A stretch of 64,000 bases of DNA, from assembly GCF_035978755.1 (NCBI RefSeq), contig NZ_CP108414.1:3162001-3226000 (forward strand), written 5' to 3'. A program made the position numbers and the translations under genes. Every line of letters starts with the position of its first letter. Within the stretch, counting starts at the first letter, position 1. The stretch comes from Streptomyces sp. NBC_01298. GTDB taxonomy: Bacteria; Actinomycetota; Actinomycetes; Streptomycetales; Streptomycetaceae. The notes under the pieces are model-generated. The model searched no databases. It was not told the DNA's origin and saw only the letters and a program-made list of their open reading frames with translations. This document shows positions 1 to 13,845 of the stretch, one piece after another.

Positions 1-160
1 GATCTTCGCGTTGTTCAGCTCCTCATGGCCGTCGATGCATCCCTCGTCCGCCGGTGAATGACCTCCGGGGAGTTTCCGGCGCGGCGGGCCACCTCGGCAC
101 CGGCACGCCCGCGTTCAGCCAGTTGGTGATGCAGGTGTGCCGGAGGTCGTACGCGAGCAG
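1..160 (-). pseudogene. Tyrosine recombinase (integrase) C-terminal remnant, frameshifted, runs off the left edge
   Basis: Read leftward from about 151, the minus strand encodes YDLRHTCITNWLNAGV, the box II R-x-x-H signature of phage and ICE tyrosine recombinases. The reading then changes frame: a second frame continues the family sequence as AEVARRAGNSPEVIHRR, and a third gives CIDGHEELNNAKI up to the window edge. At least two small indels are therefore needed to restore the expected integrase C-terminus, so the copy is dead. Sequence upstream of the YDLRH motif is not convincingly integrase-like, so the 5' part is missing or replaced. The gene may continue left of the window. It lies inside the element that ends at the tRNA fragment near 6.85 kb, and may be an older, superseded integrase. 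Confidence 0.7.
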
Positions 161-226
161 ATCGCTCGGCTCCAGGGTGAGGTCACCGAGCTGCGGGAGC
201 GGGTTGTGGAGCTGGAGGGGAAGTAG
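137..226 (+). pseudogene. Possible 3' remnant of a coiled-coil protein gene
   Basis: On the plus strand a frame from GTG at 137 to TAG at 224 encodes a strongly heptad-patterned tail (EVVREQIARLQGEVTELRER, then VVELEGK). Such endings occur in small regulators and relaxase-associated proteins of actinomycete elements. No start or upstream body is visible, because the preceding bases belong to the antisense integrase remnant. This looks like a rearrangement junction near base 155. The function is not identifiable. Confidence 0.3.
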
Positions 227-413
227 CCCCCGGCCCACGCCGTCCCGGCCGTCACCGCCGCGACGCGTGATGAGTGCAAGAGCGCCTGCTGTTGTCACAA
301 TCCTGCCCCCTTCGTTCGGATCGAATGGAGGGCTCCGACCTGCGTCGCTAGGCTGTCGCCCCGCCCTCTGCATCCTTTGTAGACCGGGCAGTTGACTGAC
401 CGACAGATACGCC

Positions 414-439
414 ATGTGGCCGCCAGAGAGCGGCCACAT
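414..439. promoter_or_regulatory. 10-bp perfect inverted repeat upstream of the XRE gene (candidate operator)
   Basis: The 10-base arms ATGTGGCCGC and GCGGCCACAT are separated by six bases and centred about 35 bp before the GTG start at 461. The position fits an autoregulatory operator or a 5' leader hairpin of the regulator that follows. No other palindrome of this quality is seen in the 227-460 gap, which otherwise holds no recognisable gene. Confidence 0.4.
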
Positions 440-460
440 AGGCCGCATGAGGGGGGATGA

Positions 461-1879
461 GTGGGGCAGCGACCGAACGACCTGACACCGCATGCAAGCC
501 CTCAGCACTACCTCGGCGCCGAGATGCGCGCCTGGCGCACACAGCGGGGCTTATCGCTGGGCAAGCTCAGCCGATCGATCCTGTTCAACACCAGCTACAT
601 GGCCCGCGTTGAGCGCGGCGGCCAGGCCGCATCAGCCGATCTGGTCCGCGCATACGACGATGCCCTCGGCGCGAGCGGCTCGCTCGTCCGGCTCCACGCA
701 TCGATCCTCGAAGGGGTCAGCCTTGACGCCCTCCCCCAGGGGGATGTGGCTAATCGAGGGCCCCATGTGGCCAACGACCTTGTGGCCCTGGCTGAGGAAC
801 CAGAGATTCAGGCACCGTCTGAGGAGGGGATGTCCGTCCCCGTACGTTCCGATGACGGAAGGATCATCTTCGTGTCCCTGTCCCGAAGGGCTCTGATCGG
901 TGCACTTGGCGCTGGTGCCGCCATCGCTGCAACCTCCGACCTCTCATCGGCAGCGATTCCTGCCCCACGATCCGATCTCATCGCCTCCGGGGCCGACCCG
1001 ATCGAGCTTCTCCAAGCAACCCGACGCGTGCTGATCGACAACGACAACCTGTTCGGTCCCCATCGGGTGATACCGACGGTCCAGCAGCAGATCGCCGCCA
1101 TCAAGGAACTGCGCGCGGATCGCCGCGGAACCGATCGCCGACAGCTGCTCCAGCTGCAGACCCAGTACTCCGAGCTGTGCGGCTGGCTCTATCAGGACCT
1201 CGGGGACTTCCGTGCCGCCCAACACTGGATGCGTGAGGCTCTGGAGGCCTCCCACATGGCCGGTGACGACGAACTGACCACGTACATCCTGGCGCGGCGC
1301 AGCCAGCTCGCCGGCGACATGAACGACCCGATCGAGGCGGTGGACGTCGCCGAAGCCGCGGAGGACCGAGCCGCGCCGAGGAGTCGCCTGGCCGCAGTGG
1401 CGGCTACGTACGGGGCCCACGGCCACGCGCTGCGGAACGACCAGCTCATGGCCCAGCGGGCGTACGAGCACGCACGGGAACTGCACGCCAGCATGGACCC
1501 GGATCCCAGCTCCCCCTGGGGGGTCTGGCTCGATGGCGCGTACATCGACGTTCAGCGAGCACACAGTCTCGCGGCTCTCGGGGACCACCGCGGAGCGGCT
1601 GCAGGCTTCCGGAATGCCATCAGCAGACTGCCCGCCGGCTACCACCGCGACCGCGGGGTCTACCTGGGGCGGGAGGCTGTTTCCCTGGCGCGCGCGGGCG
1701 AGGCCGAGCAGGCAGCCTCCATCGGACTTCAGGCACTGGCCGTTGCGAAGGACACCGGTTCCGACCGCATCACGCGCGAGCTGGCCCAGCTCGATGGAGA
1801 ACTTGATCAGTGGCGTACGGTCCCTGGCGTGAGCGACTTCAAGGATGCTCTGACCGAGGCAGTACTGCGCCAGGCCTGA
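461..1879 (+). CDS. XRE-family helix-turn-helix regulator with TPR-like C-terminal region
   Basis: The 472-residue product has an N-terminal HTH of the XRE type at about residues 18-75 (LGAEMRAWRTQRGLSLGKLS, then SYMARVERG). A hydrophobic Ala/Gly segment at about 145-165 follows, typical of this Streptomyces regulator group. The rest is an alpha-helical repeat region resembling tetratricopeptides. It probably controls the two genes downstream; the gap to the next start is 44 bp. GTG at 461 follows a purine-rich stretch; an ATG at 457 is out of frame. Codon 31 (551-553) is TTA, so translation should depend on the bldA tRNA and be developmentally timed. The ligand and targets cannot be told from sequence. 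Confidence 0.8.
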   Translation: MGQRPNDLTPHASPQHYLGAEMRAWRTQRGLSLGKLSRSILFNTSYMARVERGGQAASADLVRAYDDALGASGSLVRLHASILEGVSLDALPQGDVANRGPHVANDLVALAEEPEIQAPSEEGMSVPVRSDDGRIIFVSLSRRALIGALGAGAAIAATSDLSSAAIPAPRSDLIASGADPIELLQATRRVLIDNDNLFGPHRVIPTVQQQIAAIKELRADRRGTDRRQLLQLQTQYSELCGWLYQDLGDFRAAQHWMREALEASHMAGDDELTTYILARRSQLAGDMNDPIEAVDVAEAAEDRAAPRSRLAAVAATYGAHGHALRNDQLMAQRAYEHARELHASMDPDPSSPWGVWLDGAYIDVQRAHSLAALGDHRGAAAGFRNAISRLPAGYHRDRGVYLGREAVSLARAGEAEQAASIGLQALAVAKDTGSDRITRELAQLDGELDQWRTVPGVSDFKDALTEAVLRQA

Positions 1880-1923
1880 ACAGGCTCCCTCCACCCGTGA
1901 CCAGCAACAGAAGGAGACCCCTA

Positions 1924-2607
1924 ATGCCCCGCCCCTACGTTCTGCTGAGCGTGGCCACATCCGTGGATGGCTACATCGATGACACCAGCACCTCGCGTCT
2001 TCTGCTGAGCAACAGCGAGGACTTCGACCGGGTAGACCAGGTGCGTGCCGAATCCGACGCCATCCTGATCGGCGCCGGCACGATGCGGTCGGACAACCCC
2101 CGGCTGCTGGTGAACAGCGACGAGCGGCGCGCGGCCCGGGTGGCCGCAGGAAAGCCTGCCTACCCGCTCAAGGTCACCATCTCCGCGAGCGGAGACCTGG
2201 AGGCCGACCTGAAGTTCTGGCACCACGGCGGAGAGAAGCTCGCCTACACCACGGACGCGGGCGAGGAGAAGCTCCGCGAGCGGCTGGCCGGCCTGGCGGA
2301 CGTGGTCTCCACGGGCCCGGCCATCGACTTCGGCGTCCTGCTGGACGACCTCGGAGCCCGCGGCATAGAGCGGCTGATGGTGGAAGGCGGCGGACAGATC
2401 CACACGGCTTTCCTCTCCCAGGGCCTGGCGGACGAGATCCACCTCGCCATCGCCCCTCTGGTCGTCGGCGACCCGGGCGCCCCCCGCTTCCTGAACCCCG
2501 CCAGCTACCCCGGCGGCTCCACTCGCCGCATGCACCTCGCCGAGGCAAGCACCATCGGCGACGTGGTCCTTCTCCGCTACCTGCCCAAGCAGGAGGGTTC
2601 CGCATGA
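1924..2607 (+). CDS. RibD C-terminal/dihydrofolate reductase-like reductase
   Basis: The 227-residue protein has the pyrimidine-reductase half of RibD as a free-standing enzyme. An N-terminal strand and loop reads SVATSVDGYIDD, a nucleotide-binding region reads AILIGAGTMRSDNPRLLV, and the C-terminal half carries the conserved VEGGGQIHTAFL motif. Family members reduce a pteridine- or pyrimidine-type carbonyl or imine with NADPH. ATG at 1924 is preceded by AAGGAG and gives the normal family length; the frame is open further upstream but without a good ribosome site. It overlaps the deaminase gene by four bases (ATGA), so the two are translationally coupled. Together they equal a split RibD. The substrate is unknown and need not be the riboflavin intermediate. 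Confidence 0.85.
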   Translation: MPRPYVLLSVATSVDGYIDDTSTSRLLLSNSEDFDRVDQVRAESDAILIGAGTMRSDNPRLLVNSDERRAARVAAGKPAYPLKVTISASGDLEADLKFWHHGGEKLAYTTDAGEEKLRERLAGLADVVSTGPAIDFGVLLDDLGARGIERLMVEGGGQIHTAFLSQGLADEIHLAIAPLVVGDPGAPRFLNPASYPGGSTRRMHLAEASTIGDVVLLRYLPKQEGSA

Positions 2608-3056
2608 CGCACGCCGACGATGTGACGTGGATGGAGCGGGCCATCGAACTCTCCCGCAAGTGCCCGCCGGCAGACGGGGCCTTCTCCGTCGGCGCCATCA
2701 TCGTGCGCGCCGACGGCGAGGAACTCGCCCACGGCTACTCCCGCGAGACGGACGCCCACGTCCACGCCGAAGAATCCGCCCTGGCCAAGCTCCCAGCGGA
2801 CGACCCCCGCCTGGCTGGCGCCACGCTCTACAGCACGCTGGAACCCTGCTCTGAGCGCAGGTCCCGCCCCCTCACCTGCACCCAGCTCATCCTCCGCTCC
2901 CCCATCCGCCGCGTGGTCATCGCCTGGCGAGAGCCGAGCCTCCTGGTGGCTGACTGCGTGGGAGTGGAGACCCTCCGAGCAGAGGCCACCGAGGTAGTTG
3001 AAGTCACCGAGCTGGCCTATCAGGCACGCGCGGTGAATGCCCACCTGCTGGCATGA
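2604..3056 (+). CDS. RibD N-terminal/CMP-dCMP-type zinc deaminase
   Basis: The 150-residue protein is a cytidine-deaminase-fold enzyme of the RibD/dCMP group. The zinc and catalytic motif reads HVHAEESAL (His-Ala-Glu) near residue 50, and the second zinc motif is [13 protein letters not shown] near residues 85-97. The spacing between the two cysteines is one residue longer than in canonical RibD, as in other stand-alone actinobacterial homologues. It would hydrolytically deaminate an aminopyrimidine or related base, passing product to the reductase encoded by the gene it overlaps. No riboflavin genes (ribA, ribB, ribE, ribH) are nearby, so a role in an accessory metabolite or in nucleotide modification is an inference. 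Confidence 0.85.
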
Positions 3057-3192
3057 CCCGCAACCCGCGGGAATCAGGACACAACATGGCCGATTATCAC
3101 CTCAGGCATCATTCTCATACGTCGTTCCGCATCGACTAATCACCCACCACCCTCGTACGATCATCGCCTTGAAGTGCTGCGACGGGGGGCTG

Positions 3193-6100
3193 ATGGTGGC
3201 GTACGTGAACGACGGTCTACACGGAAAGCCAAAGAAGTCGGTGCCCGACCTTGTCTTAAGGTTCGGGCAAGACATCTCGGCCAAGCTCCAGGGTGCGGGG
3301 GGCAAAGACAGCGGCAGGGAAGACGCACTGACAGCCCCGACCGAGCAACTACTTAGGGGAATGGCCAGCCGCCAGAACGTCGGCCTTATCGCTCACGGTC
3401 AACACAAAATCAAGAAGCTAAACGCCCGTCCCGACTTCGCTATCAGCGTGGGCGGAAAGGTCATCGGGCACGTCGAGCTGAAAGCGCCGGGCAAAGGCGT
3501 CGACCCGACGAAATGGGCGACTAGTAGCCACGACCACGAACAGTGGACCAAGATCAAGGTGTTACCTAACCTTCTCTACACCGATGGCTACGACTGGGCG
3601 CTGTACCGAGGGGGCGTCCAGATCGGCGCCGCAGCTCGACTCGTTGGTGACTTCGATCGCGGCTCAGGCAGTTTCACACCGGCAGACGACCGATTCGAGC
3701 AGCTGATAGCCCTCTTCCTCGGATGGGTTCCGGCCAAGCCGAGCAGTCTCAGCGACTTGGTGAAGCGGGTCGCCGGGTTGTGTGCACTGTTGCGAGATGA
3801 GGTTCGCGAGCGCCTCGCTCGCGAAGCTCGGGGAGAGACGACCCAAGCCTTCACAGTGCTGGCGGAGAACTGGCGAGACTTACTATTCCCTGACGCGACT
3901 CCGGAGTCATTTGCCGACCAGTACGCGCAGACGCTCACCTTCGCCTTACTCCTGGCCAGGATTGAGGGCATTGACCTGGAAGACTTGCCGCTAGCAGAAG
4001 CAGCAAGGAAACTCGGCAAGAGCCATTCACTGATGGGCAAGGCTCTGGCCGTCCTTACGGACGACGCTTTGGACGATCTGCGCGGCGTAGTCGGAATCAT
4101 GGTCCAGGTCATATCCAAGGTCGACTCGGACCTATTCAAGGACGATAGCGGCGACGCATATCTGCATTTCTACGAGGGTTTCCTGAGCGCTTACGACCCA
4201 CAGCTGCGCCAGAAAACCGGCACATACTACACGCCGAATGAAATCGTAAGCTTTATGGTCGATTTCACCGACAAGATATTGCGAGAGCGGCTCGGACAGA
4301 GCAAGGGATTCGGCAGCGAAGATGTAACCGTAGTCGACCCTGCCACTGGAACCGGAACCTTCCTCATCAATGTGATCAACCGCGTTGCCAAGGACATCGA
4401 GCGCGAGTATGACAGCGGACTCAAGCCAGGCCTCCTTCGTAAGCTCGCCGGCCGCCTTATAGGATTTGAGAAGCAAACCGGCCCTTACGCAGTCGCCGAG
4501 CTGCGCCTCAGCCACGCCTTCAAGGCACATCAAACCGAGGTCGCCGATAATGCAATTAGGCTGCACGTAGCGGACACTCTCGACGATCCAGCCGTCGAGC
4601 AGCACCTCGGCTTCATCTATGACGCTATCGCCCAGCACCGAAGGGCAGCCAATAAGATCAAGGCCGAGGAAAAGGTCATGGTTGTGATCGGCAACCCTCC
4701 GTACCTCAAGGGCGCTAAGGCCGCAGGCCAAGGCAAGTGGATATCGGAGGGAGGTGGAAATAATCTCCCACCCATCCTGAACCGCTTTCGCGCACCCGAC
4801 ATCGGTAGAACCGGGTACGCCTTGGACAACCTCTATGTCTACTTCTGGGCCTGGGCCACCTGGAAGGTATTTGATCAGGTGATGGCCACTACGGGCGAGC
4901 CCAATGCCCCCTCGGGCGTCATTGCTTTCATTACGAATGCAGGATTCCTCGACAGCAAGGGCGCTGCGGGGATGCGTCGCTACCTCAGAAAGTCGGCGGA
5001 CGAGGGCTGGATCATCGGTCTAACACCGGAGGGTCCGTATTCGAAGGCCCGGACCCGAGTCTTCCCACTCGTTAAACGAGAGGTGTGCATTGCGATCTTT
5101 GTCCGCCGAGGAGATCCGGACCCCGACACCCCTGCAGTAGTGCGCAGGCTCGATGCCCCTCAAGGTCACCGCGACGAAAAATTCGCTTGGCTCGGCGACC
5201 TCGGACTGGATGGCCACGAGGATGGTTCGCCCTGGCAGACGTGTTCGGATGCCCTTACGGATCCATTCCAGCCTGCAGCCAGCGAGGACTGGTCGAACAT
5301 GCCCTCTCTGGATGAATTGCTTCCGTGGGCATCGTCCGGGAACAAGAACAACCGGAGTTGGCCGGTCTCTCCGAGCGAGGAAATACTGAACAAGCGCTGG
5401 AAGATGCTCATCAAGGCACCCAAGAACCGTAAGGCTGCCTTGATGAAGAGCACCGGGGATCGCCATCCGGACAAGCTAGAGCAGCCCTTGCCGGGAGGTG
5501 AATGGCAGGGAATTCTAGCCGAAGAGAAAAACGAAATCCCGCAGGTGGAACGCTACGGGCGGATGACCTTCGACCGGCAGTACCTAGTCGCCGACCGCCG
5601 GGTTATCGACCGCCCCCGCCCCTCACTCTTCTTCGTCCAGAGCAATCGACAGGTATTCCTTTCCGAGCTCCATACAGAATCGGGGCGCCCTGGGCCGGCG
5701 GTTAGCTTCACGAACCTCATTCCGGACATGCATCATTTCAAGGGCACCGAGGGTGGGCGCGTGATGCCACTGTATCGCGACCCGCTAAGTCAGCAGCCGA
5801 ACGTCACGCCTAGCCTGGTGGCTACGCTCTCCAGCGTTCTGGGGGTTTCGGTCACCCCTGAGGATCTTCTGGCATACATCGCCGGGAGCGCAAGTCACTC
5901 TGGCTACACCGAGCGGTACCAGCAGCAGCTGAGCGCCCGCGGAGTTCATATACCTCTCACCAGAAACCCAGCGCTGTGGCAGGAAGTCGTCGAGATCGGC
6001 AAGAGGGTTATATGGCTGCACACTTATGGTGAGCGATATGTGGACGCTAAAGCAGGGCGACCGCGTGCAGAGCCACGCCTCCCAGAAGGACAAAGGCCTA

Positions 6101-6576
6101 AGAATCCCGAGGCAATTGGTGAGAGCCCTCACGGATTCCCCGAGTCTTTGACCTACGACGCCAATAACCAGGCACTCGTGCTTGGCGGAGGCACAATCAC
6201 GCCCGTCGCACCTGAGGTCTGGGAGTACAGAATTGGGGGCGTCCAAGTCGTTCGAAAATGGTTTGGCTTTCGCAAGCTTAATCCCGATGTCGAGCGCCAG
6301 ACGCCATTGAATGACGTGGTGCCGCAAGAATGGCCTGCAGACTACACGATTGAACTCTTGAACCTTTTGAATGTTCTCGGCCTCCTAGCCGCTTTGGAAC
6401 CTGAGCAAGCGCGCCTGCTAAGGGCCATCGCGGAGGGGCCGTTGATCGGAGTGGATGAGTTGACACAGCGCTCGGTCCTCCCTATTCCTGAATCGGCGAA
6501 GAAGGAGCCAAAGGTGCCGAGAGTGCCGCACCCCAAGCCCGGCGACGGCCACCAGGAAACGATCGACTTCTTGTAA
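3193..6576 (+). CDS. Single-chain type IIG/ISP-like restriction-modification enzyme
   Basis: The 1127-residue protein combines nuclease, methyltransferase and specificity regions. An N-terminal PD-(D/E)xK site is visible as P80-D81 and E95-L96-K97. The adenine-N6 methyltransferase core shows motif I DPATGTG at 382-388 and motif IV NPPY at 501-504. The C-terminal third resembles the type ISP specificity domain ([14 protein letters not shown], then [16 protein letters not shown]). No helicase domain is seen, unlike full-length ISP enzymes. ATG at 3193 follows a G-rich site; the open frame upstream is probably untranslated. GC is visibly lower than in neighbours. TTA codons occur at 3256, 3562, 3880 and 3946, arguing for transfer from a different background and for bldA dependence. 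PglX of BREX is less likely because of the nuclease motif. Confidence 0.85.
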
Positions 6577-6844
6577 CGGCAAGATGTGGCGAACGAAATC
6601 GACTAGGAGCTCATCGCAGTCTGGTGACGGTCAGACCGGGCGGGCTGCGGTAGCGCCCGGCACTCAGTCATCCGTCGAGCTGTCTGCCCCGCACGCACAT
6701 CGCGCATCCCCTCGCTCAGTCAACTAGCCCACAGGATCCTGTGCATGGCGTGTGAAGCCACGACCAACCAGTAACACTCGCCATGTCGGTGCAGGTCAGA
6801 GCAATTTCACGCAACACATGTGTATGCCCTCCGGAGCCGTGTGC
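6577..6844. other. Non-coding element end before the tRNA fragment
   Basis: This stretch separates the restriction-modification gene from the tRNA-like fragment. No frame with coding character, no ribosome-binding site and no strong hairpin was found on either strand. As the terminal arm of an integrated element it could contain integrase arm-binding or excision-factor sites, but none can be identified by eye. Confidence 0.4.
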
Positions 6845-6869
6845 GCAGGTTCGAATCCTGCCGGGGGCA
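6845..6869 (+). other. tRNA 3'-end fragment, probable attachment site (attR) of an integrated element
   Basis: The bases form a complete T-arm (GCAGG, loop TTCGAAT, CCTGC), followed by a 3' acceptor strand CGGGGGC and discriminator A. No CCA is encoded, as is normal in Streptomyces. There is no D-arm or anticodon arm upstream, so it is not a whole tRNA. The acceptor strand would pair with GCCCCCG, which fits tRNA-Arg (CCT-type) genes, a known integration target of actinophages and ICEs. A terminator lies immediately downstream, as expected for the original tRNA gene. The rebuilt full tRNA should lie at the far left end of the element, outside the window. The tRNA identity is inferred from arm sequence only. 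Confidence 0.75.
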
Positions 6870-6890
6870 CTTCGCAGGAAGTGCCACAGA

Positions 6891-6931
6891 GACCCTCCAA
6901 ACAGTGCCAGTACTGTTCGGAGGGTCTTTTT
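6891..6931 (+). terminator. Rho-independent terminator of the interrupted tRNA locus
   Basis: The stem is GACCCTCC paired with GGAGGGTC. An inner stem ACAGT/ACTGT follows after a two-base internal loop, and a run of five T comes directly after. It begins 22 bp past the tRNA fragment. It is a classic L-shaped terminator, unusual in this GC-rich genome apart from stable-RNA genes. Confidence 0.8.
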
Positions 6932-6983
6932 GTGTTACGCACCATGGGTACCCGCAGACCAGCAGCCTTCGGGGGACATATGC

Positions 6984-7090
6984 GTGGACGACAGGCTCCG
7001 TGATTTCGCGAAGGGGTCACCCAACTTCGGTGTCCTCTAGCAGCACCAGCCCCTCCTTTCTCTCTTCATGGCGCCTCGGCCGAGGCCACG
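6984..7090 (+). pseudogene. Broken 5' end of the DUF4145-like gene
   Basis: From GTG at 6984 the frame encodes VDDRLRDFAKGSPNFGVL and then meets TAG at 7038. Reading on in the same frame gives QHQPLLSL. The family-like continuation (HGASAEA, then TVFKNPNLSLVQAGQYGEVL) is in the frame that leads into the next entry. SPNFGxL followed by a helical xAE..F.DPN segment is how DUF4145-type and nuclease-related N-termini usually begin. One nonsense change and one single-base deletion near 7060 therefore separate the natural start from the rest of the gene. Confidence 0.55.
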
Positions 7091-8326
7091 GTGTTCAAGA
7101 ACCCCAACTTGTCCCTGGTTCAGGCCGGCCAGTACGGCGAGGTCCTCGCTGAGGAGCTGATCAGCCGGATCGGCATGCGGATCGAGGGCGACCGACAGGT
7201 CGACCGCCTGACCGCGCTGGTCCGTGCCGGAGTCCTCGTCCCCGAAATCCGTGACGACTTCGACCGCTTGCGGCGCGACCGGAACAAGGCCGCGCACAGC
7301 CACCTGTTCGATACGGCGCGGGCCCTGGCCGCCGTACGTGTCTGCTACGAACCCGGCCTCTGGTTCCACGACGCCATCGAGGGCCGGCGGACAGTCGAGG
7401 AGCGCCTCGAGCAGGCCCGGATCGATCCCGGTGACCTCACTGCCGTGCTGATGATCGGAGGCAGCAGCCAGATCCCCGCCGTGGGCCCCGCGACGCCGTT
7501 TCAGCGCCCTGATCGATCGCAACTCGACGGCGAGGTCGAGGTGTTCGGGGACGGGGCCGTTCCCCCGGAAATCCACAAGGAACTCGACCGCCTGCTCGCT
7601 CTGCGCCCCACGGGCCGAACCGCACCCGAACCGACGCACCCGCAGCAGGCCCCCGTCACGAAGGCACAGCCCGACCGCAATCCCTTCGCCGTGCAGTCAC
7701 CCACTCCCGGGCCCGCGCCAAGGGCCAGGACAGGGCTGGGGGGCGCGCCATCGGCCGCACCCCTGGTCGTGGACGGCTCGAACCTGGCGTGGAACGGACG
7801 CCCTCCGCGTGGAGCGGGAGGAAAGCCGAGCTTCGCCGCGCTGCGGGCGGCCATCAAGTCCCTGAGGTTCAACCACCGCGATCGGGACATGCATGTCGTC
7901 GTCGATGCCACCCTCCGCCACGACGTGTCCGAGGCCGCGCGGCCCCAGGTCGAGGCGGCCATCGCCGCCGGCACCGTCGTCCAGCCCCCGGCCGGGACCG
8001 AGGGCGTAGGCGACGCCCTGGTGATCAGCATCGCCGAGGAGGTGGCCGGTGTGATCGTGTCGAACGACAACTTCGGCCCCTTCCAGAAGGCGAACCCTTG
8101 GCGACGGGCACCCGGCCGCGTGCTGGGCGCCACCCAGTCACAGGGCATCTGGGTCTTCACCTCGCGACGGCCCAACCTCGCGTCCCCCGGCGCGCATCGC
8201 CGGTGGCGTCCAAACCGCGGCCCGCACCCGCCCTGTATCGCACTGGGCGGATCGGGCCGAGTCGCTGTCCGGCGAACCGGAGATCGCTACGGTGGTGACC
8301 GTTCGCATGAGGGAGGGGACCCATGA
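7091..8326 (+). CDS. Mosaic protein: DUF4145-like, Hsp70 fragment, NYN/PIN-type RNase domain (5'-truncated)
   Basis: The 411-residue frame has three unlike parts. Residues 1-100 resemble DUF4145 (QAGQYGEVLAEELI, then RLRRDRNKAAHSHLF). Residues 100-135 contain an Hsp70 signature fragment (DLTAVLMIGGSSQIPAV) without the rest of a chaperone. After a Pro-rich linker, residues 225-360 match a Zc3h12a-like NYN nuclease: VVDGSNLAWNG, the acidic GVGDALVISIA stretch, then VIVSNDNFGPFQ and a terminal GIWVFTSRRP. The last 55 residues are low complexity and may not be native. GTG at 7091 is the first usable in-frame start, but the true start appears to lie upstream behind a stop and a frameshift. It overlaps the next gene by four bases. 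If expressed, RNA cleavage by the NYN domain is the likeliest activity. Confidence 0.6.
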   Translation: MFKNPNLSLVQAGQYGEVLAEELISRIGMRIEGDRQVDRLTALVRAGVLVPEIRDDFDRLRRDRNKAAHSHLFDTARALAAVRVCYEPGLWFHDAIEGRRTVEERLEQARIDPGDLTAVLMIGGSSQIPAVGPATPFQRPDRSQLDGEVEVFGDGAVPPEIHKELDRLLALRPTGRTAPEPTHPQQAPVTKAQPDRNPFAVQSPTPGPAPRARTGLGGAPSAAPLVVDGSNLAWNGRPPRGAGGKPSFAALRAAIKSLRFNHRDRDMHVVVDATLRHDVSEAARPQVEAAIAAGTVVQPPAGTEGVGDALVISIAEEVAGVIVSNDNFGPFQKANPWRRAPGRVLGATQSQGIWVFTSRRPNLASPGAHRRWRPNRGPHPPCIALGGSGRVAVRRTGDRYGGDRSHEGGDP

Positions 8327-10173
8327 AGGCTGACACGGTCGATCTTCGACGGATTTTCGGCAGGGACGTCCGGTATACGGTGCCGCTGTTCCAGCGTCCG
8401 TATGTCTGGGACAGGGACGACAACTGGGCCGCCCTGTGGGAGGACATCCGCCGCACGGTCGAGAGGTCCGAGCAGGCGGCGCAGGCCGGGGAGGCCGTCG
8501 CGCCGCACTTTCTCGGCGCCGTCGTCTTCGACGAGGCACCCCATATGTCATCGGACCTCGAGACCCGGCAGGTCATCGACGGGCAGCAGCGCCTGACGAC
8601 GCTCCAGCTCTTCCTTTTCGCGGCGAGGCTGTCGGCGACTTCCCGGGACCACGAGAAGTCCGTACGGCTGCTCAGCAAGTTCCTGGAGAACGACGAGGAC
8701 CTGTTCGACCGTGCCCGGCATCCCGACCACCTCTACAAGGTCTGGCCCACGAACGCCGACCGCGCGGAGTTCCGTTCCGTCATGCTCGGCAAGGGCGGGA
8801 CCGGCCGGCTGATTTCGGCAGTCGGCTACTTCCAGCAGGAGATCGACAAGTGGCTGGCGGAGGCACCCGAACCGCAGGAGCGGCTCGGGGCGCTGGTCCA
8901 GACGATGCGGGAGCATCTGCGACTGGTCGTCATCGACCTGGAGGAGCACGACGACGCGCAGGTCGTCTTCGAGACCCTCAACAGCCGTGGCACGCCGCTG
9001 GAACACGCGGACCTGGTCAAGAACCTGCTCTTCCGGGACGCCGAACACGCCGGTGCGGACATCGACCGCCTCTACAAGACCTACTGGGCTCCCTTCGACC
9101 AGGCTGAGTGGCGGACCGAGCAGACAACCGGCCGCATCACGCGAAGCCGCCTCGACGTGTTCCTGACCTATTGGCTCACGATGCGCACCCAGCGCGAATT
9201 CACCTCTTCGGCGCTGTTCAAGGAGTTCGAGCGCTGGCTGCGCTCCGCCTCCGTTCCCACCGAGGAGGTATTCGCGGAACTGACGCGGTACGCCGAGATC
9301 TACGAACGCCTCGACCAGTATCCGTCGCACGGCGTCGAGGGCCGGTTCCTGTACCGGATGAAGGTCATGCAGATGTCTACGCCGATGCCGCTGCTGCTCT
9401 TCCTCTACGGCCTGAGCGACGACGTGCTGTCGCCCGAGCGCCGTCGCAACGCCGTCCGCGCCATCGACAGCTATCTGGTGAGACGGGCGATCCTCAACCT
9501 CAGCAACCGCGACTACAACCACGTCTTCCGCGAGCTCGTGGCCGCGGCGGCGCAGGAGCCCGAGCACGCGGACGAAGTCATCGGCAAGACCCTTTCGGCG
9601 ATGCGTGGCCAGCACCGGCACTGGCCGTCCGACGCCGAGTTCCGCACGGCGCTGGAGCAGGACCCCCTGTACGCCCGTCTCTACCGCCATCGCGTCCGCA
9701 TCCTCCTGGAGGCGCTGGAGGACGAGCTGCGTACCGACCACACGGAGCAGCTCACCGCCCCTGTCGGCGATCAGCTCGGTGCGAAGCTGACGATCGAGCA
9801 CGTCATGCCGCAGAGCTGGCGCGAGAATTGGCCTCCGCTTGAGGGTGATCCAAACGAAGGGGCAGACCGTGACGAGCTGGTTCACACCCTCGGCAATCTG
9901 ACCCTGGTCACGGCCCGCCTCAATCCCACCCTCGGCAACATGGCGTGGGACAGCAAGCGCCAGTGGCTCGGTGAGCACAGCCTCCTGCGACTCACCCACG
10001 GCACGCTGCTCAATCCCCCACCCACCTCCGACATCAGCGAATGGGCTTCGTCATGGGACGAGCACCGTATCCGTGACCGGGGTGCCCATCTCGCCTCGCT
10101 TGCCTTGCGCATCTGGCCTTCGGCGGCCGAGCTGTTCGCCGCATCCGTCGCCACGGGAAGCGCCGACCAATGA
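8323..10173 (+). CDS. GmrSD-type (DUF262/DUF1524) modification-dependent restriction enzyme
   Basis: The 616-residue protein has the DUF262 (GmrS-like) N-terminal domain, with PLFQRPYVWD at about 21-30 and the nucleotide-handling IDGQQRLTT at 85-93. A helical middle follows. The C-terminal DUF1524 His-Me nuclease domain shows EHVMPQSW at about 492-499, then HTLGNLTLVT and the N..L..MAWDSKR helix. GmrSD enzymes are type IV restriction systems that cut DNA carrying modified, often glucosylated, cytosines. ATG at 8323 overlaps the stop of the upstream NYN-containing frame, so both would be co-translated. GC and codon use match the host better than the restriction-modification gene to the left. 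It is a credible phage-defence gene placed beside an integration hot spot. Confidence 0.85.
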   Translation: MKADTVDLRRIFGRDVRYTVPLFQRPYVWDRDDNWAALWEDIRRTVERSEQAAQAGEAVAPHFLGAVVFDEAPHMSSDLETRQVIDGQQRLTTLQLFLFAARLSATSRDHEKSVRLLSKFLENDEDLFDRARHPDHLYKVWPTNADRAEFRSVMLGKGGTGRLISAVGYFQQEIDKWLAEAPEPQERLGALVQTMREHLRLVVIDLEEHDDAQVVFETLNSRGTPLEHADLVKNLLFRDAEHAGADIDRLYKTYWAPFDQAEWRTEQTTGRITRSRLDVFLTYWLTMRTQREFTSSALFKEFERWLRSASVPTEEVFAELTRYAEIYERLDQYPSHGVEGRFLYRMKVMQMSTPMPLLLFLYGLSDDVLSPERRRNAVRAIDSYLVRRAILNLSNRDYNHVFRELVAAAAQEPEHADEVIGKTLSAMRGQHRHWPSDAEFRTALEQDPLYARLYRHRVRILLEALEDELRTDHTEQLTAPVGDQLGAKLTIEHVMPQSWRENWPPLEGDPNEGADRDELVHTLGNLTLVTARLNPTLGNMAWDSKRQWLGEHSLLRLTHGTLLNPPPTSDISEWASSWDEHRIRDRGAHLASLALRIWPSAAELFAASVATGSADQ

Positions 10174-10250
10174 CCGACCACCCCACCGGTCGTGTAGGTG
10201 TGGACGATCGCTCCTGAGATGACCGCCTCGCGGTGATCGCGCCGGCTCAG

Positions 10251-10370
10251 CTACTTGGAGCCGTGTTCGTTCGGGTCCTTGCCGAGGGTGCTCTCCACCG
10301 TGTGGCCGAAGGCGCCAACGTTCGGCGTCTTGTTCAGGGATTCGGGCCAAGCGCCCTGCGCCTGGCCGGC
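10251..10370 (-). pseudogene. C-terminal remnant of an unknown small protein gene
   Basis: On the minus strand a frame ending in TAG at 10251 encodes NAGQAQGAWPESLNKTPNVG followed by AFGHTVESTLGKDPNEHGSK. Composition and codon choice look genuinely coding. Upstream the frame stays open but has no ATG, GTG or TTG and becomes arginine-rich noise near 10380. It therefore looks like a tail that has lost its 5' part. The product is not recognised. Confidence 0.35.
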
Positions 10371-10396
10371 GTTCGTCGCGCACGTGCGCCGACCCG

Positions 10397-12611
10397 TCAG
10401 CGGCGCTTGCGCTTCCCTCCGACGCGCTTCGCGGGCTTCTTCGTGCCCCGGGAGCGGGTCGTTGCGCTGGTGTGGAAGGCTCGGCGGGCCTGGTTGGCGG
10501 TGGTGCGGTCAGGGTGGTGTGCGAGCTGCTGCGCCAGGAAGGCGGCCGTGTACGGGTCCGCCCCGATGAGGGCGGTGAGGAGGGCCGGGGGGCCGCCGGG
10601 CCAGGTTGACGCGGCCTTGTCGAAGGCGGCGTGGAGCGCGGCGAACAGTTCGGGCTCCTCCTGATCCGGGTCCGCCGTCAAGCGGTGGTCGAGGGATGCG
10701 CCGCGCCGTACGGATTCGAGCTCGTCGATTAGGTACACCGCGCGGGCCGACAGCGGGACCGTGGAGGTCTCGAGCGCCTGGCCGCGTGCGTGCAGGGTGT
10801 GTTCGGCCCAGCCGCCCAGGACGGGGTCCGCCAGCAGTCCGTACAGGGCATCGTCGGGCACGGCCGTCGCGTCCAGGGCGGCGAGCAGCGCTCGCCGCCT
10901 GGCGGGCTCCTCCTCGGGGCGGTCGGCGGAGAGCGCGTCGAAGAAGGGGGGCCATCCATCGGAGCCCCGCGCGGCCAGCCAGTGGGCGACGGCCTGCCGG
11001 GCGGCCCTCTTCGGCCACCACTGGGCGCCCGCGACGAGCCGTTCCGCATCCCAGGCGAGCACCTGGTCATGAGTGGGGAAGACATCGGCGGCTTCGCCTC
11101 CGATGCCCAGGAGGAGGGCGTCGCGCAGCAAGGAGGTGCCGAGTGGGGTGAGGGTGAGGGCATCGCCGGAGGTGCTGGGTGACACCCAGCACCTCCAGGC
11201 GGTCCATCAGGCGCGCGAGCCGGGCCGCGCCCGGGATCAGGTCCGTGCGGTCGGACTCGGTGAGTGACGGAAGCCCGAGTACGGCGGACAGGGCCTGGGG
11301 GGCGGGCAGTTCGTAGGCTCCGGTGGCCGGGACGGACGGGGCGGGGTCGCTCTCGTGACCCGGCGGGATGAACCACATGTCGTTCAGGGCGGCCAGTCGG
11401 GCCACGGACTGCGCCGCCCCCGCCCGCTCGGACAGGCCGTAGAGGGTCAGCAGGTGCTCGCCGTCGAACTGTTCGGCCGTCTCGTCCTCCTCGGCCAGCT
11501 GCGCCAGCAGGGCGCCGAAGAGGTTCAGGCCAAGTCCGGTCAGCTCGGCGGGACCGCCGTCGCGCCATGCTTCGGCCGATGGTCCCGCGCTCGGGGTGCC
11601 GCCCGGTTCCCGACGCACCAGGAACCCGCTCGCCAGGGCCAGTTCGCGCGTTCGGTCGTCCGCACCCTGCGGGTCGGCGGCGGCTCGCGCCAGGAGCTGG
11701 GGCAGGGGGGCGGCACGCAGCAGCGTGGCCTGCTCCTGGGGGGAGGCCGGCAGTGGGGCCGGGGGCATGGGTGCGAGTTCCTCGCCGTACATCTCCACGT
11801 GCTGGAAGGCCATCGCCTCGACGAGGGCGAGGAGGGCGCGGCCGGGAGCATCGCCGCCCCCCGGCGCCAGGTGCGCGAAGGGGCCGCGCAGCAGGGCGTC
11901 GAGCCCGGCTGCCGTCCAGCGGTCCGCGAGCAGGCCCGCCTGTTCGTCGTACCAGTCCTCCTGCGCGCCGGCTGGGGCCCCGGTGGTCGTCACCGCCTCC
12001 AGTCGGGCGGTGAGCAGCAGACGGGCCTGGTTTGAGCGTTCCGCGCAGAGGGCCTGCGCGTAAGCCGCCGCGGAGAGCGGTTCATTCGCGGACGAGGAGG
12101 CTACGAAGCCCAGCGCGGCGTTCCGCTCGGCGTAGGGGAGCGCGGCGAACGTCTCCAGCCAGTCGCGCACCGCCTGGGGGTCGTTGTCGTCAACTCCCGC
12201 CGCACGCACCAGGTTCCCGTAGAGCCGCGGCCAGGTGAGGCGGTCGGGGCTCGTCATCGCCTGCCCGAAGCCCTCTGCCAGCTCGTGCACCCGGGCCACG
12301 AGCTTCGCGTGCCGCTTGGCATTGAGACGGCCGGCCTCGTGCGTGTGGTCGGCCAGCGAGGCCAGCGCGGTGACGAAGCCCGGCAGCTCCTCCGCGGCGG
12401 CGCTGACGTAGAGCGGGAGCAGTAGATGCAGCAGTTCCTCGGCGAGCTCCTCGGTGGGCTCGGGCAGGCCCGTCCGGCAGCGGGCCCCGCCCAGGACCAG
12501 CAGGCCGAGGACGGCCTCCGCCGCCCGCGCGTCCAGCGGGGCGCCCCGCTCTTCGGCTCGGGCAAGGAAGGAGTCCACGTCGAGGGGAAAGGGCGTGATG
12601 GCGGTGGTCAT
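10397..12611 (-). pseudogene. Conserved hypothetical protein gene interrupted by a frameshift
   Basis: The 5' part starts at ATG 12611 (MTTAITPFPLDVDSFLARAE) and reads a soluble, mostly helical Leu/Ala-rich protein to residue ~480 (RLARLMDRLEVLG). It then turns into arginine- and histidine-rich nonsense, ending at 11067. The natural continuation (SGDALTLTPLGTSLLRDALL and onward) is in the adjacent frame from 11185 to the stop at 10397, with a basic tail (KKPAKRVGGKRKRR). Joined, the product would be about 740 residues. No known domain is recognised. The switch falls inside a perfect palindrome at 11168-11196. A real mutation, an assembly error and programmed shifting are all possible, and the last is least likely because no slippery run is present. 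Confidence 0.7.
11168..11196. repeat. Perfect 29-bp palindrome (14-bp arms, 1-base centre) at the frame switch
   Basis: The arm GGAGGTGCTGGGTG and its exact reverse complement flank a single base. The position coincides with the reading-frame switch in the surrounding gene. Perfect palindromes with almost no loop inside coding sequence are rare. They are typical products of template-switch repair of quasi-palindromes, and are also hard to sequence. Confidence 0.8.
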
Positions 12612-12861
12612 CCCGGCAGCCTAGGGGCGCGGCGCGGCCGCCACTCGTGGTCCGCCTTCTTTTACGTCTACCGGGTAGAGCTGCCGTCCGGGGCCGGGGT
12701 GGGCCCGCGCATTCCGGTGGTCCGTACGAAGGATGTGGGGGTGGGTCTGTGGGTTTTGGGGGGTGGGGGGCGGGGGTGGGCGTGCGTAGGTTGGTGGGGA
12801 GGCCACTTGGGGTTGCTGATCTGGTGCTTTGTGGCGTGCTCTGACTGTGAGGCGGCGCGGA

Positions 12862-13845
12862 ATGCGTGACTTGGTGGAGACGGCGCGGCGGTGGGTGGCC
12901 GAGGGGCGGGTCGGGTTTCTGGCGCGGCCCGTGACCGAGCAGGGCTTCGGGCCCCGGGATCCCGCCGGAGCGGTGCTCGTGGATGTGGGTGGTGAGTGTG
13001 TCGGGGCCCTGTACCGGGGGGTGTTCGATGCCGAGCTCGTGGCGGAGGCCGCCTCCATGGGGGGCGGGGAGACCGCTCGGGTGTGTGAGGTTTCCGTGGG
13101 GGCCGGGGAAGCCGTTGAGGCCAAGCTGACGTGTGGCGGGCAGGCCGAGGTGCTGTTGCAGCCGCTGGCGGCGATTCCCGGTGAGTGGTGGGAGCTGCTC
13201 GGGCAGGGGGTCGGGGTCGCGCTCGTGACCCAGTTGAACGAGCGGGCGGATCAGGCTGTGAGTGGTGTCGTGCGGGGGGCCGATCAGCCTTCCGGTGACG
13301 CCGAGCGGCGGGCCGGGGAGCTGCTGCGGACGCGGCGGCCCGGGCGGGACGCGTTGTACGCGGGCTCCGGGCTGGTGCTCGTGGAGGCGTACCCGTCGGC
13401 TCCGTACGTGGTGATCGGCGGAGGCGGGGAGCTGGCCGAGGTCATCGAGGCCCAGGCCCGGCTGCTCGGGTGGGAGGTCAGTGTCGTCACCGATGTGGGT
13501 GGGGCCGAGAAGCTCCTCGGGGCGCGGCGGGACGCCGCCTGTCTGGCGATGCTGAGCCATGACCCGGAGTTCGACGTGCCGACGCTGCGGACCGCGCTCG
13601 CGCTGGGCGTCCCTTACGTCGGTGCGCTCGGCTCCCGCAAGACCACCGCGCGGCGCCGCGAGGGACTGCTCGCGGCGGGGGTGGGCGAGGACCTGCTGCG
13701 GACGGTGCACGGGCCGATCGGGCTGGATCTGGGCGGACAGACGCCGGCGGAGACGGCGCTGGCCATCTGTGCGGAGATCCTGGCGGTGCTCGGTGGTCGC
13801 GAGGTGCGCGGGGTGCGGGACGCGGACGGCCCCCTCAAGGGGTGA
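12862..13845 (+). CDS. xdhC: XdhC/CoxI-family molybdenum-cofactor maturation protein
   Basis: The 327-residue protein has an N-terminal XdhC_CoxI domain (residues ~1-100, starting MRDLVETARRWVAEG) and a C-terminal Rossmann domain. The latter holds the dinucleotide-type motif VVIGGGGELAEVIEAQA and the conserved LGVPYVGALGSRKT and LDLGGQTPAETALAICAEI motifs. Members bind molybdenum cofactor and support its sulfuration and insertion into xanthine-dehydrogenase-type enzymes. No molybdoenzyme subunits are adjacent, so it serves a target elsewhere. ATG at 12862 gives the usual length; an ATG at 12829 is in frame but extends into non-conserved residues. The 250 bp upstream are G-rich, with no gene seen. 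Confidence 0.85.
   Translation: MRDLVETARRWVAEGRVGFLARPVTEQGFGPRDPAGAVLVDVGGECVGALYRGVFDAELVAEAASMGGGETARVCEVSVGAGEAVEAKLTCGGQAEVLLQPLAAIPGEWWELLGQGVGVALVTQLNERADQAVSGVVRGADQPSGDAERRAGELLRTRRPGRDALYAGSGLVLVEAYPSAPYVVIGGGGELAEVIEAQARLLGWEVSVVTDVGGAEKLLGARRDAACLAMLSHDPEFDVPTLRTALALGVPYVGALGSRKTTARRREGLLAAGVGEDLLRTVHGPIGLDLGGQTPAETALAICAEILAVLGGREVRGVRDADGPLKG

Follow-up and report, generated by a model that had tools for sequence, protein, structure and literature searches.

A truncated tRNA-Arg(CCG) 3' end in Streptomyces sp. NBC_01298 read as the right attachment end of stacked, decayed elements

Why the 3' part of a tRNA should stand apart from any tRNA gene is the question raised by the DNA considered here, a window of 64,000 nucleotides from Streptomyces sp. 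NBC_01298 corresponding to C1:3162001-3226000 of its genome. An earlier note, made from the letters alone, had recognized a complete T-arm and acceptor strand with a following terminator at window positions 6845-6931 and had interpreted them as the right boundary of an element integrated into a tRNA-Arg-like gene. The analysis described below indicates that tRNA-Arg(CCG) has very probably received a stack of AICE-derived elements, now decayed, and that this scar is their right attachment end, as suggested by its truncation point, the tandem order of three tRNA copies, an integrase relic, intact relatives at the same tRNA, and the flank junction observed in two other genomes (G269 and G362).

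The scar and its counterparts in the genome

The scar and the structures directly behind it are the following.

Window 6828-6871, plus strand: truncated 3' part of tRNA-Arg(CCG), an attR-type scar with 44/44 identity to the complete tRNA
Window 6866-6885, plus strand: hairpin of the last bases of the scar and the N-type flank, fold -14.9 kcal/mol, 0/200 shuffles as good
Window 6884-6934, plus strand: intrinsic terminator with a U-run behind the scar, fold -29.1 kcal/mol, z = -7.1

A tRNA 3' end lacking the remainder of the tRNA was indeed present: ARAGORN called no tRNA over the window, and window 6828-6871 matched C1:3127845-3127888, within a complete tRNA-Arg(CCG), without mismatch. The identity starts at nucleotide 31 of the tRNA, where the 5' strand of the anticodon stem ends, and takes in the anticodon loop, T-arm, and acceptor strand up to the 3' end and the bases that follow. 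Because it begins 17 nt to the left of 6845, the anticodon loop belongs to the scar together with the T-arm and acceptor strand recognized earlier. A search of the genome with this stretch returned two other places, C1:3127845 and C1:3159702, each with 98% identity over 47 nt (E = 4.6e-16), far beyond chance. The sole complete tRNA among the three copies, according to ARAGORN, is a tRNA-Arg with anticodon CCG at C1:3127815-3127887; the leftward search proposed in the earlier note thus succeeded, and the assignment of the scar to a tRNA-Arg was upheld by a complete gene with the same bases in the same genome. All three copies (complete, truncated at C1:3159702, and truncated at window 6828) lie on one strand with identical cores, the complete tRNA being 41 kb to the left of the third; within the window the core occurred once when both strands were searched with up to 10 mismatches allowed. 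The arrangement is that of integration into a tRNA, with the complete gene at one end and a truncated 3' copy in the same orientation at the other, and it is also that of accretion, with two att-bounded segments sharing one common core in three copies. The proposed right boundary is accordingly an attR end, but one that closes two stacked segments rather than a single element.

The first 30-40 bases to the right of the scar constitute what is here called the N-type flank, and a hairpin of the same type as that at 6866-6885 was found behind the tRNA in relatives. It precedes the strong terminator at 6884-6934 (0/200 shuffles equal in fold energy), in agreement with the terminator described earlier. 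Terminator-like hairpins follow each of the three tRNA copies, with fold energies of -28.4, -29.1, and -29.1 kcal/mol and 0/200 shuffles as stable in each case. These features are consistent with a mechanism in which the attP site of an element would carry the 3' part of the tRNA from the anticodon arm onwards, and a tyrosine integrase would cross over in or near the anticodon loop. The tRNA would regain a 3' end and terminator from the incoming element, and its old 3' end would be pushed to the far side; with each element presumably bringing its own terminator along with the replacement 3' end, the tRNA would stay functional. A later element entering the same tRNA would repeat the process and so generate a chain of truncated 3' ends.

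The two segments and their relation to known elements

Segment 1 is a 31.8-kb, att-bounded stretch between the complete tRNA and the middle truncated copy, outside of the window. Its cargo, labelled by profile match, consists mostly of candidate phage-defence genes and includes the following called ORFs.

Segment 1: CBS-domain protein, profile match
Segment 1: UvrD helicase, profile match
Segment 1: 2273-aa helicase, best PADLOC model DruE, 302 bits
Segment 1: NsnA/NsnB pair, 413 and 375 bits
Segment 1: HTH/DUF5753 regulator, profile match
Segment 1: very large methylase, REase_MTase_IIG, 886 bits
Segment 1, C1:3149789-3152793 (L200:5789-8793): SNF2-type helicase, DrmD model, 152 bits
Segment 1: Ser/Thr kinase, profile match
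Segment 1, right end, C1:3155443-3159689: Helicase_C_3 protein and AAA ATPase pair, profile match

The N-terminal part of the SNF2-type helicase lies in another frame and, being split between two overlapping frames, the gene is probably a pseudogene or the product of a sequencing error. No integrase was found in segment 1. Its B-type left flank recurs behind cores in G097, G007, G350, G090, G182, and L151 (BLAST), and the flanks of G022 and G141 resemble the B type by eye. The right arm scored 47, 39, and 39 against the scar arms of G007, G182, and G141, respectively, the best of 200 shuffles being 35; hence, in G007 and G182, which combine the B-type left flank with the right-arm match, both ends of segment 1 occur on one segment. 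The possibility that the helicase of segment 1 is a core gene was rejected, as only 14/150 genomes, that of NBC_01298 included, matched it at E <= 1e-50; four of the 13 others showed at least 74% identity. The Helicase_C_3 and ATPase pair was recovered at 90-94% in G173, G227, and G269, where its position relative to cores and to an XdhC-type gene (see below) varies, and in G362, G038, and G083 the Helicase_C_3 helicase stands right behind the tRNA flank.

Segment 2 (9.1 kb, C1:3159749-3168827) begins before the window and ends at the scar.

Window 1-6827: right three quarters of segment 2, the segment as a whole lying between the truncated tRNA at C1:3159702 and that at window 6828
Segment 2: 230-aa protein without assigned family
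Segment 2: Hypoth_Ymh protein
Window 1-151, minus strand: what is left of the C-terminal end of a decayed AICE-type tyrosine integrase, split over three frames, starting 18 bases left of the window
Window 461-1879, plus strand: HTH regulator of the NsdA family with a single in-frame TTA at 551, NF053720 188 bits, PF13560
Window 1924-2607, plus strand: RibD C-terminal/dihydrofolate-reductase-like protein, PF01872 138 bits
Window 2604-3056, plus strand: cytidine/deoxycytidylate deaminase-like protein, PF00383 71 bits
Window 3190-6576, plus strand: single-chain restriction-modification enzyme, type ISP, PF18135 262 bits, PF02384, PADLOC REase_MTase_IIG 976 bits

The integrase remnant, the TTA-containing regulator, and the AT-richer restriction-modification gene that the earlier note had placed to the left of the scar were all recovered, the last with a GC content of 0.59 vs 0.73 for window 12701-64000. 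The pieces of the remnant are 59-100% identical to residues 433-489 of an intact 490-aa integrase that stands behind an A-type core in G237, and its DNA is 91% identical to that of G046 over 180 bp. The A-type left flank of segment 2 recurs behind the tRNA in G046, G039, and G042; in G046, the same integrase tail directly follows the tRNA and A-type flank. The A-family integrase gene beside the tRNA of G046 (L112:444-2200) is interrupted by a DDE transposase gene. Next to the attachment sites, the decayed tail of segment 2 was the only trace seen of a possible cognate integrase; intact related integrases accompany this tRNA elsewhere. A search of the whole genome with the G068 integrase returned nothing at E <= 1e-5, a search that also missed the known remnant and had no positive control; elsewhere in the genome, seven phage-integrase profile matches exceeded the cut-off. 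Counterparts of the left end of segment 2 (86%) and of its deaminase gene (85%) lie between two cores in G199. The right arm of segment 2 scored at best 27 against other scars, within the range of shuffles (95% of which reach up to 27), and the two ends of this segment are therefore not independently tied to one insertion.

If the newest element adjoins the tRNA, segment 2 would be the earlier arrival and segment 1 the later one; segment 2 would have decayed and lost its integrase except for the tail, and modules would have been reshuffled by recombination. With modules shuffled between relatives, homologous recombination between scars is possible; it may have shaped the island, and a simple order of events may be wrong.

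Cis-mobilisable elements (CIMEs) are att-bounded elements without recombination or conjugation genes, and the best-known examples are from other bacteria. A Pfam scan of the ORFs called in segments 1 and 2, a set without small ORFs, turned up neither RepSA nor FtsK nor an intact integrase; the same scan recognized them in the element of G212. On the ORFs scanned, neither segment combines int, rep, and tra within one att-bounded element, and neither was therefore classed as an AICE. Within the called ORFs, each has two compatible att sites and no integrase or transfer genes of its own. At the level of sequence alone, they resemble CIMEs in being att-bounded without an integrase and stacked beside others, and they would fit defective, CIME-like att-bounded elements.

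Stacking of AICEs at a Streptomyces tRNA-Arg is already published. One report describes a rhizosphere population in which one to three AICEs or defective AICEs are stacked in one tRNA-Arg with identical direct repeats, together with an old remnant without traB and with different integrase families at one site (PMC9513070). The accretion seen there is like that described here at the level of tRNA-Arg; in contrast, functional elements remain in that population according to this account, whereas the present segments yielded neither rep nor tra nor an intact int, and their cargo consists mostly of candidate defence genes. Likewise, Sav3708 and Sav3728 are described in a second report as AICEs in tandem in a tRNA-Arg of S. 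avermitilis with integrases of different sub-families (PMC3218068); the likeness again holds at the tRNA-Arg level, but, as portrayed there, these elements possess int, tra, and rep, unlike the present segments. The present locus was not found in a literature search of open-licence PMC papers; to a known kind of arrangement, the analysis adds this one island with its layering and the mosaic on its right.

Stacks at the same tRNA across the genus

The 33-mer core was present in 330/392 genomes of the genus, 130 of which had at least two cores anywhere (by hand count, 104 with two, 22 with three, three with four, and one with five); a reversed-pattern control yielded 0 in every genome. Multiple cores do not always denote a stack: in G326, a distance of 5 Mb separates the two, and they are on different strands. 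In the first 150 genomes examined, a 66-nt pattern covering all but the first 6 nt of the tRNA occurred once each in 115. Since it was found exactly once per genome holding it, the extra cores are truncated; 49 of these 150 genomes had at least two cores, 48 with exactly one 66-nt pattern and one (G021) with none. From relatives, 46 truncated copies with the same core and 44 distinct arms were collected.

Among 80 named loci of related integrases, 74 have a tRNA core downstream and six do not. Twenty genomes chosen for having at least two cores near each other, that of NBC_01298 included, provided 26 att-bounded segments. An integrase frame of at least 300 aa was recognized in 15 of them (13 by motif, and segment 1 of G237 and segment 2 of G125 by tblastn) and in none of the other 11, G110, G243, G016, and G182 having been examined by one motif and one integrase query only. 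Four of the 11 keep remnants (G134, G124, G188, and segment 2 here). The stack of G212 comprises four copies and three integrase frames, and at its tRNA site a Pfam scan recognized a full AICE with RepSA, an FtsK-like transfer protein, an HTH protein, and an integrase.

These surveys bear on two other explanations. Pieces derived from tRNAs occur in genomes, and the scar might in principle resemble a tRNA by chance, or be a tRNA pseudogene of the usual sort that has nothing to do with integration. The probability of this is negligible: it has to contend with the 44/44 identity, the 46 truncated copies (with the break at the anticodon arm in those displayed), the 130/392 genomes with at least two cores set against 0 for the reversed control, and the empty-site relatives G269 and G362, and it is already refuted by the three-copy structure together with the recurrent truncation point. 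That a single 41-kb element was inserted once, the middle tRNA copy arising by later internal rearrangement, would also account for three copies in one orientation with identical cores. However, the left-flank families of the two segments differ (B and A) and each occurs separately behind the core in other genomes, and stacks with several integrases exist elsewhere, as in G212, which together make a single insertion very unlikely.

Returning to the preferred reading of successive insertions, it is conceivable, though rather improbable, that in Streptomyces defence cassettes lacking an integrase, such as segments 1 and 2, dock at tRNA-Arg(CCG) as if on a rail; their att ends would still work and allow any AICE coming into this tRNA to move or reshuffle them in trans, and the island would be built up without recombinases encoded by the cassettes. 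If integrase-less segments were indeed mobile in trans, the locus would offer a tractable actinobacterial model for spread without recombinases of their own. Its conserved core, and a full tRNA that was single-copy wherever counted, make the site convenient for surveys across the genus, and the different order of the same modules among relatives could reveal how such islands come to be assembled and shuffled. From a single scar, the history of a defence island becomes readable with respect to its layers, the integrase family of one layer, and the point where the conserved chromosome resumes.

The right side of the scar

The DNA to the right of the scar includes the features below.

Window 6872-7402: flank to the right of the scar, immediately adjoining the complete tRNA in G269 (in G362 as far as 6946)
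Window 6872-12704: variable mosaic stretch, parts of it in G269, G362, G039, G257, G309, and G227
Window 7091-8326, plus strand: NYN/Zc3h12a-like RNase-domain protein with HsdR-like N-terminus, PF11977 30 bits; PRK11448 48 bits, below cut-off
Window 8323-10173, plus strand: GmrSD-type (type IV) restriction enzyme, PF03235 120 bits, PF07510 81 bits
Window 10396-12642, minus strand: module of 262-aa and 514-aa proteins, DNA matches in relatives
Window 12862-13845, plus strand: XdhC-type gene, first gene of the order common to relatives, PF13478, colinear DNA

Relatives without the left-hand block were found, as the earlier note had suggested seeking. In G269, the complete tRNA runs straight into the counterpart of window 6872-7402 (577 nt with the core, 88.6% identity), and in G362 into that of window 6872-6946 (120 nt, 87.5%), both being other species with other cargo further right rather than isogenic strains lacking the element. 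Given that they carry its right flank directly behind a complete tRNA, the scar is, as far as sequence can tell, the attR of an inserted block, in keeping with the configuration first proposed.

The claim of a host-like right side held for base composition (GC 0.70) but not for gene order, which is not conserved until about 12700. The common order begins at 12697-12723 in 18 genomes, with G257 and G309 as exceptions; in G209 and G167, which are outside of the 18, a contig ends where it begins. The XdhC-type gene occurs in 33/392 genomes at E <= 1e-90, including that of NBC_01298. No further att copy was found in window 6872-12704, and none of six close relatives spanning the place (G083, G074, G054, G038, G078, and G042) had a counterpart of this stretch at E <= 1e-5. 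A comparison of window 6871-10400 with the tRNA flanks of the first 29 relatives gave one 34-nt match only. Absence of the entire stretch from relatives, true for the six close ones, was rejected as a general reading: 10396-12642 is held by G309, G257, G227, and G269, and other parts by G269, G362, and G039, the last with a 74-nt piece of the GmrSD gene close to XdhC. The protein of 7091-8326 unites a piece resembling type I restriction HsdR with an NYN RNase domain, and its gene adjoins that for GmrSD; no Pfam or NCBIfam match was obtained for the 514-aa protein of the 10396-12642 module.

That module adjoins XdhC in G257, where a single 3.5-kb match (91%) runs from 10353 to 13841, and in G309, approximately 330 bp behind a truncated core. 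In G227 and G269 it is separated from XdhC, lying beyond the helicase and ATPase of segment 1, which in G269 themselves adjoin XdhC; in G227, as in NBC_01298, segment 1 ends at the middle scar and the A flank follows without a break (92% over 1.9 kb). As these positions differ among relatives, the Helicase_C_3/ATPase module is taken to move between layers, and window 6872 to about 12705, where the gene order of relatives differs, is a mosaic of variable island cargo.

The odds are even that the N-type flank belongs to the original chromosome or that it is an arm left by an older element now in decay, in which case the scar would join two elements and not mark the edge of the foreign DNA. An older arm would be in keeping with the variable cargo to the right of the scar and with the N flanks that separate core from integrase within seven att-bounded segments (G009, G101, segments 1 and 2 of G212, G125, G350, and G197). 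Among loci L120-L199, a non-N flank accompanied 40/40 integrases with at least 60% identity to the query, and an N flank adjoined the remaining, less similar group at 34/34 loci with a downstream core, in what is one similarity-biased sample with groups and flank pattern set after inspection. Furthermore, an integrase of this kind or a remnant lies beside the N flank in nine of 13 N-flank genomes tested (integrases in G026 and G107; G038, G083, G134, G188, and G124; and, right of the distal scar, G042 and G074). On the other hand, the remaining four (G078, G054, G071, and G013) showed no integrase remnant there, nor did 118 kb of the NBC_01298 genome apart from that of segment 2. The complete tRNA is followed by an N-type flank in 20/29 relatives inspected, and, as would an original flank, the N flank reaches the XdhC side within 1.1 kb of the complete tRNA in G078 and within about 0.6 kb of the distal scar in G278. 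A general tie between flank type and integrase clade was considered and discarded, being broken by integrases that share one motif yet stand behind N flanks (G350 and G197) and a B-like flank (segment 2 of G007).

In one further genome, G012:C1, the tRNA is found at 2.12 Mb, the upstream flank of the tRNA at 2.49 Mb, and the helicase and XdhC at 5.14-5.16 Mb; with pieces that are neighbours elsewhere standing so far apart, this chromosome appears to have been rearranged at the site.
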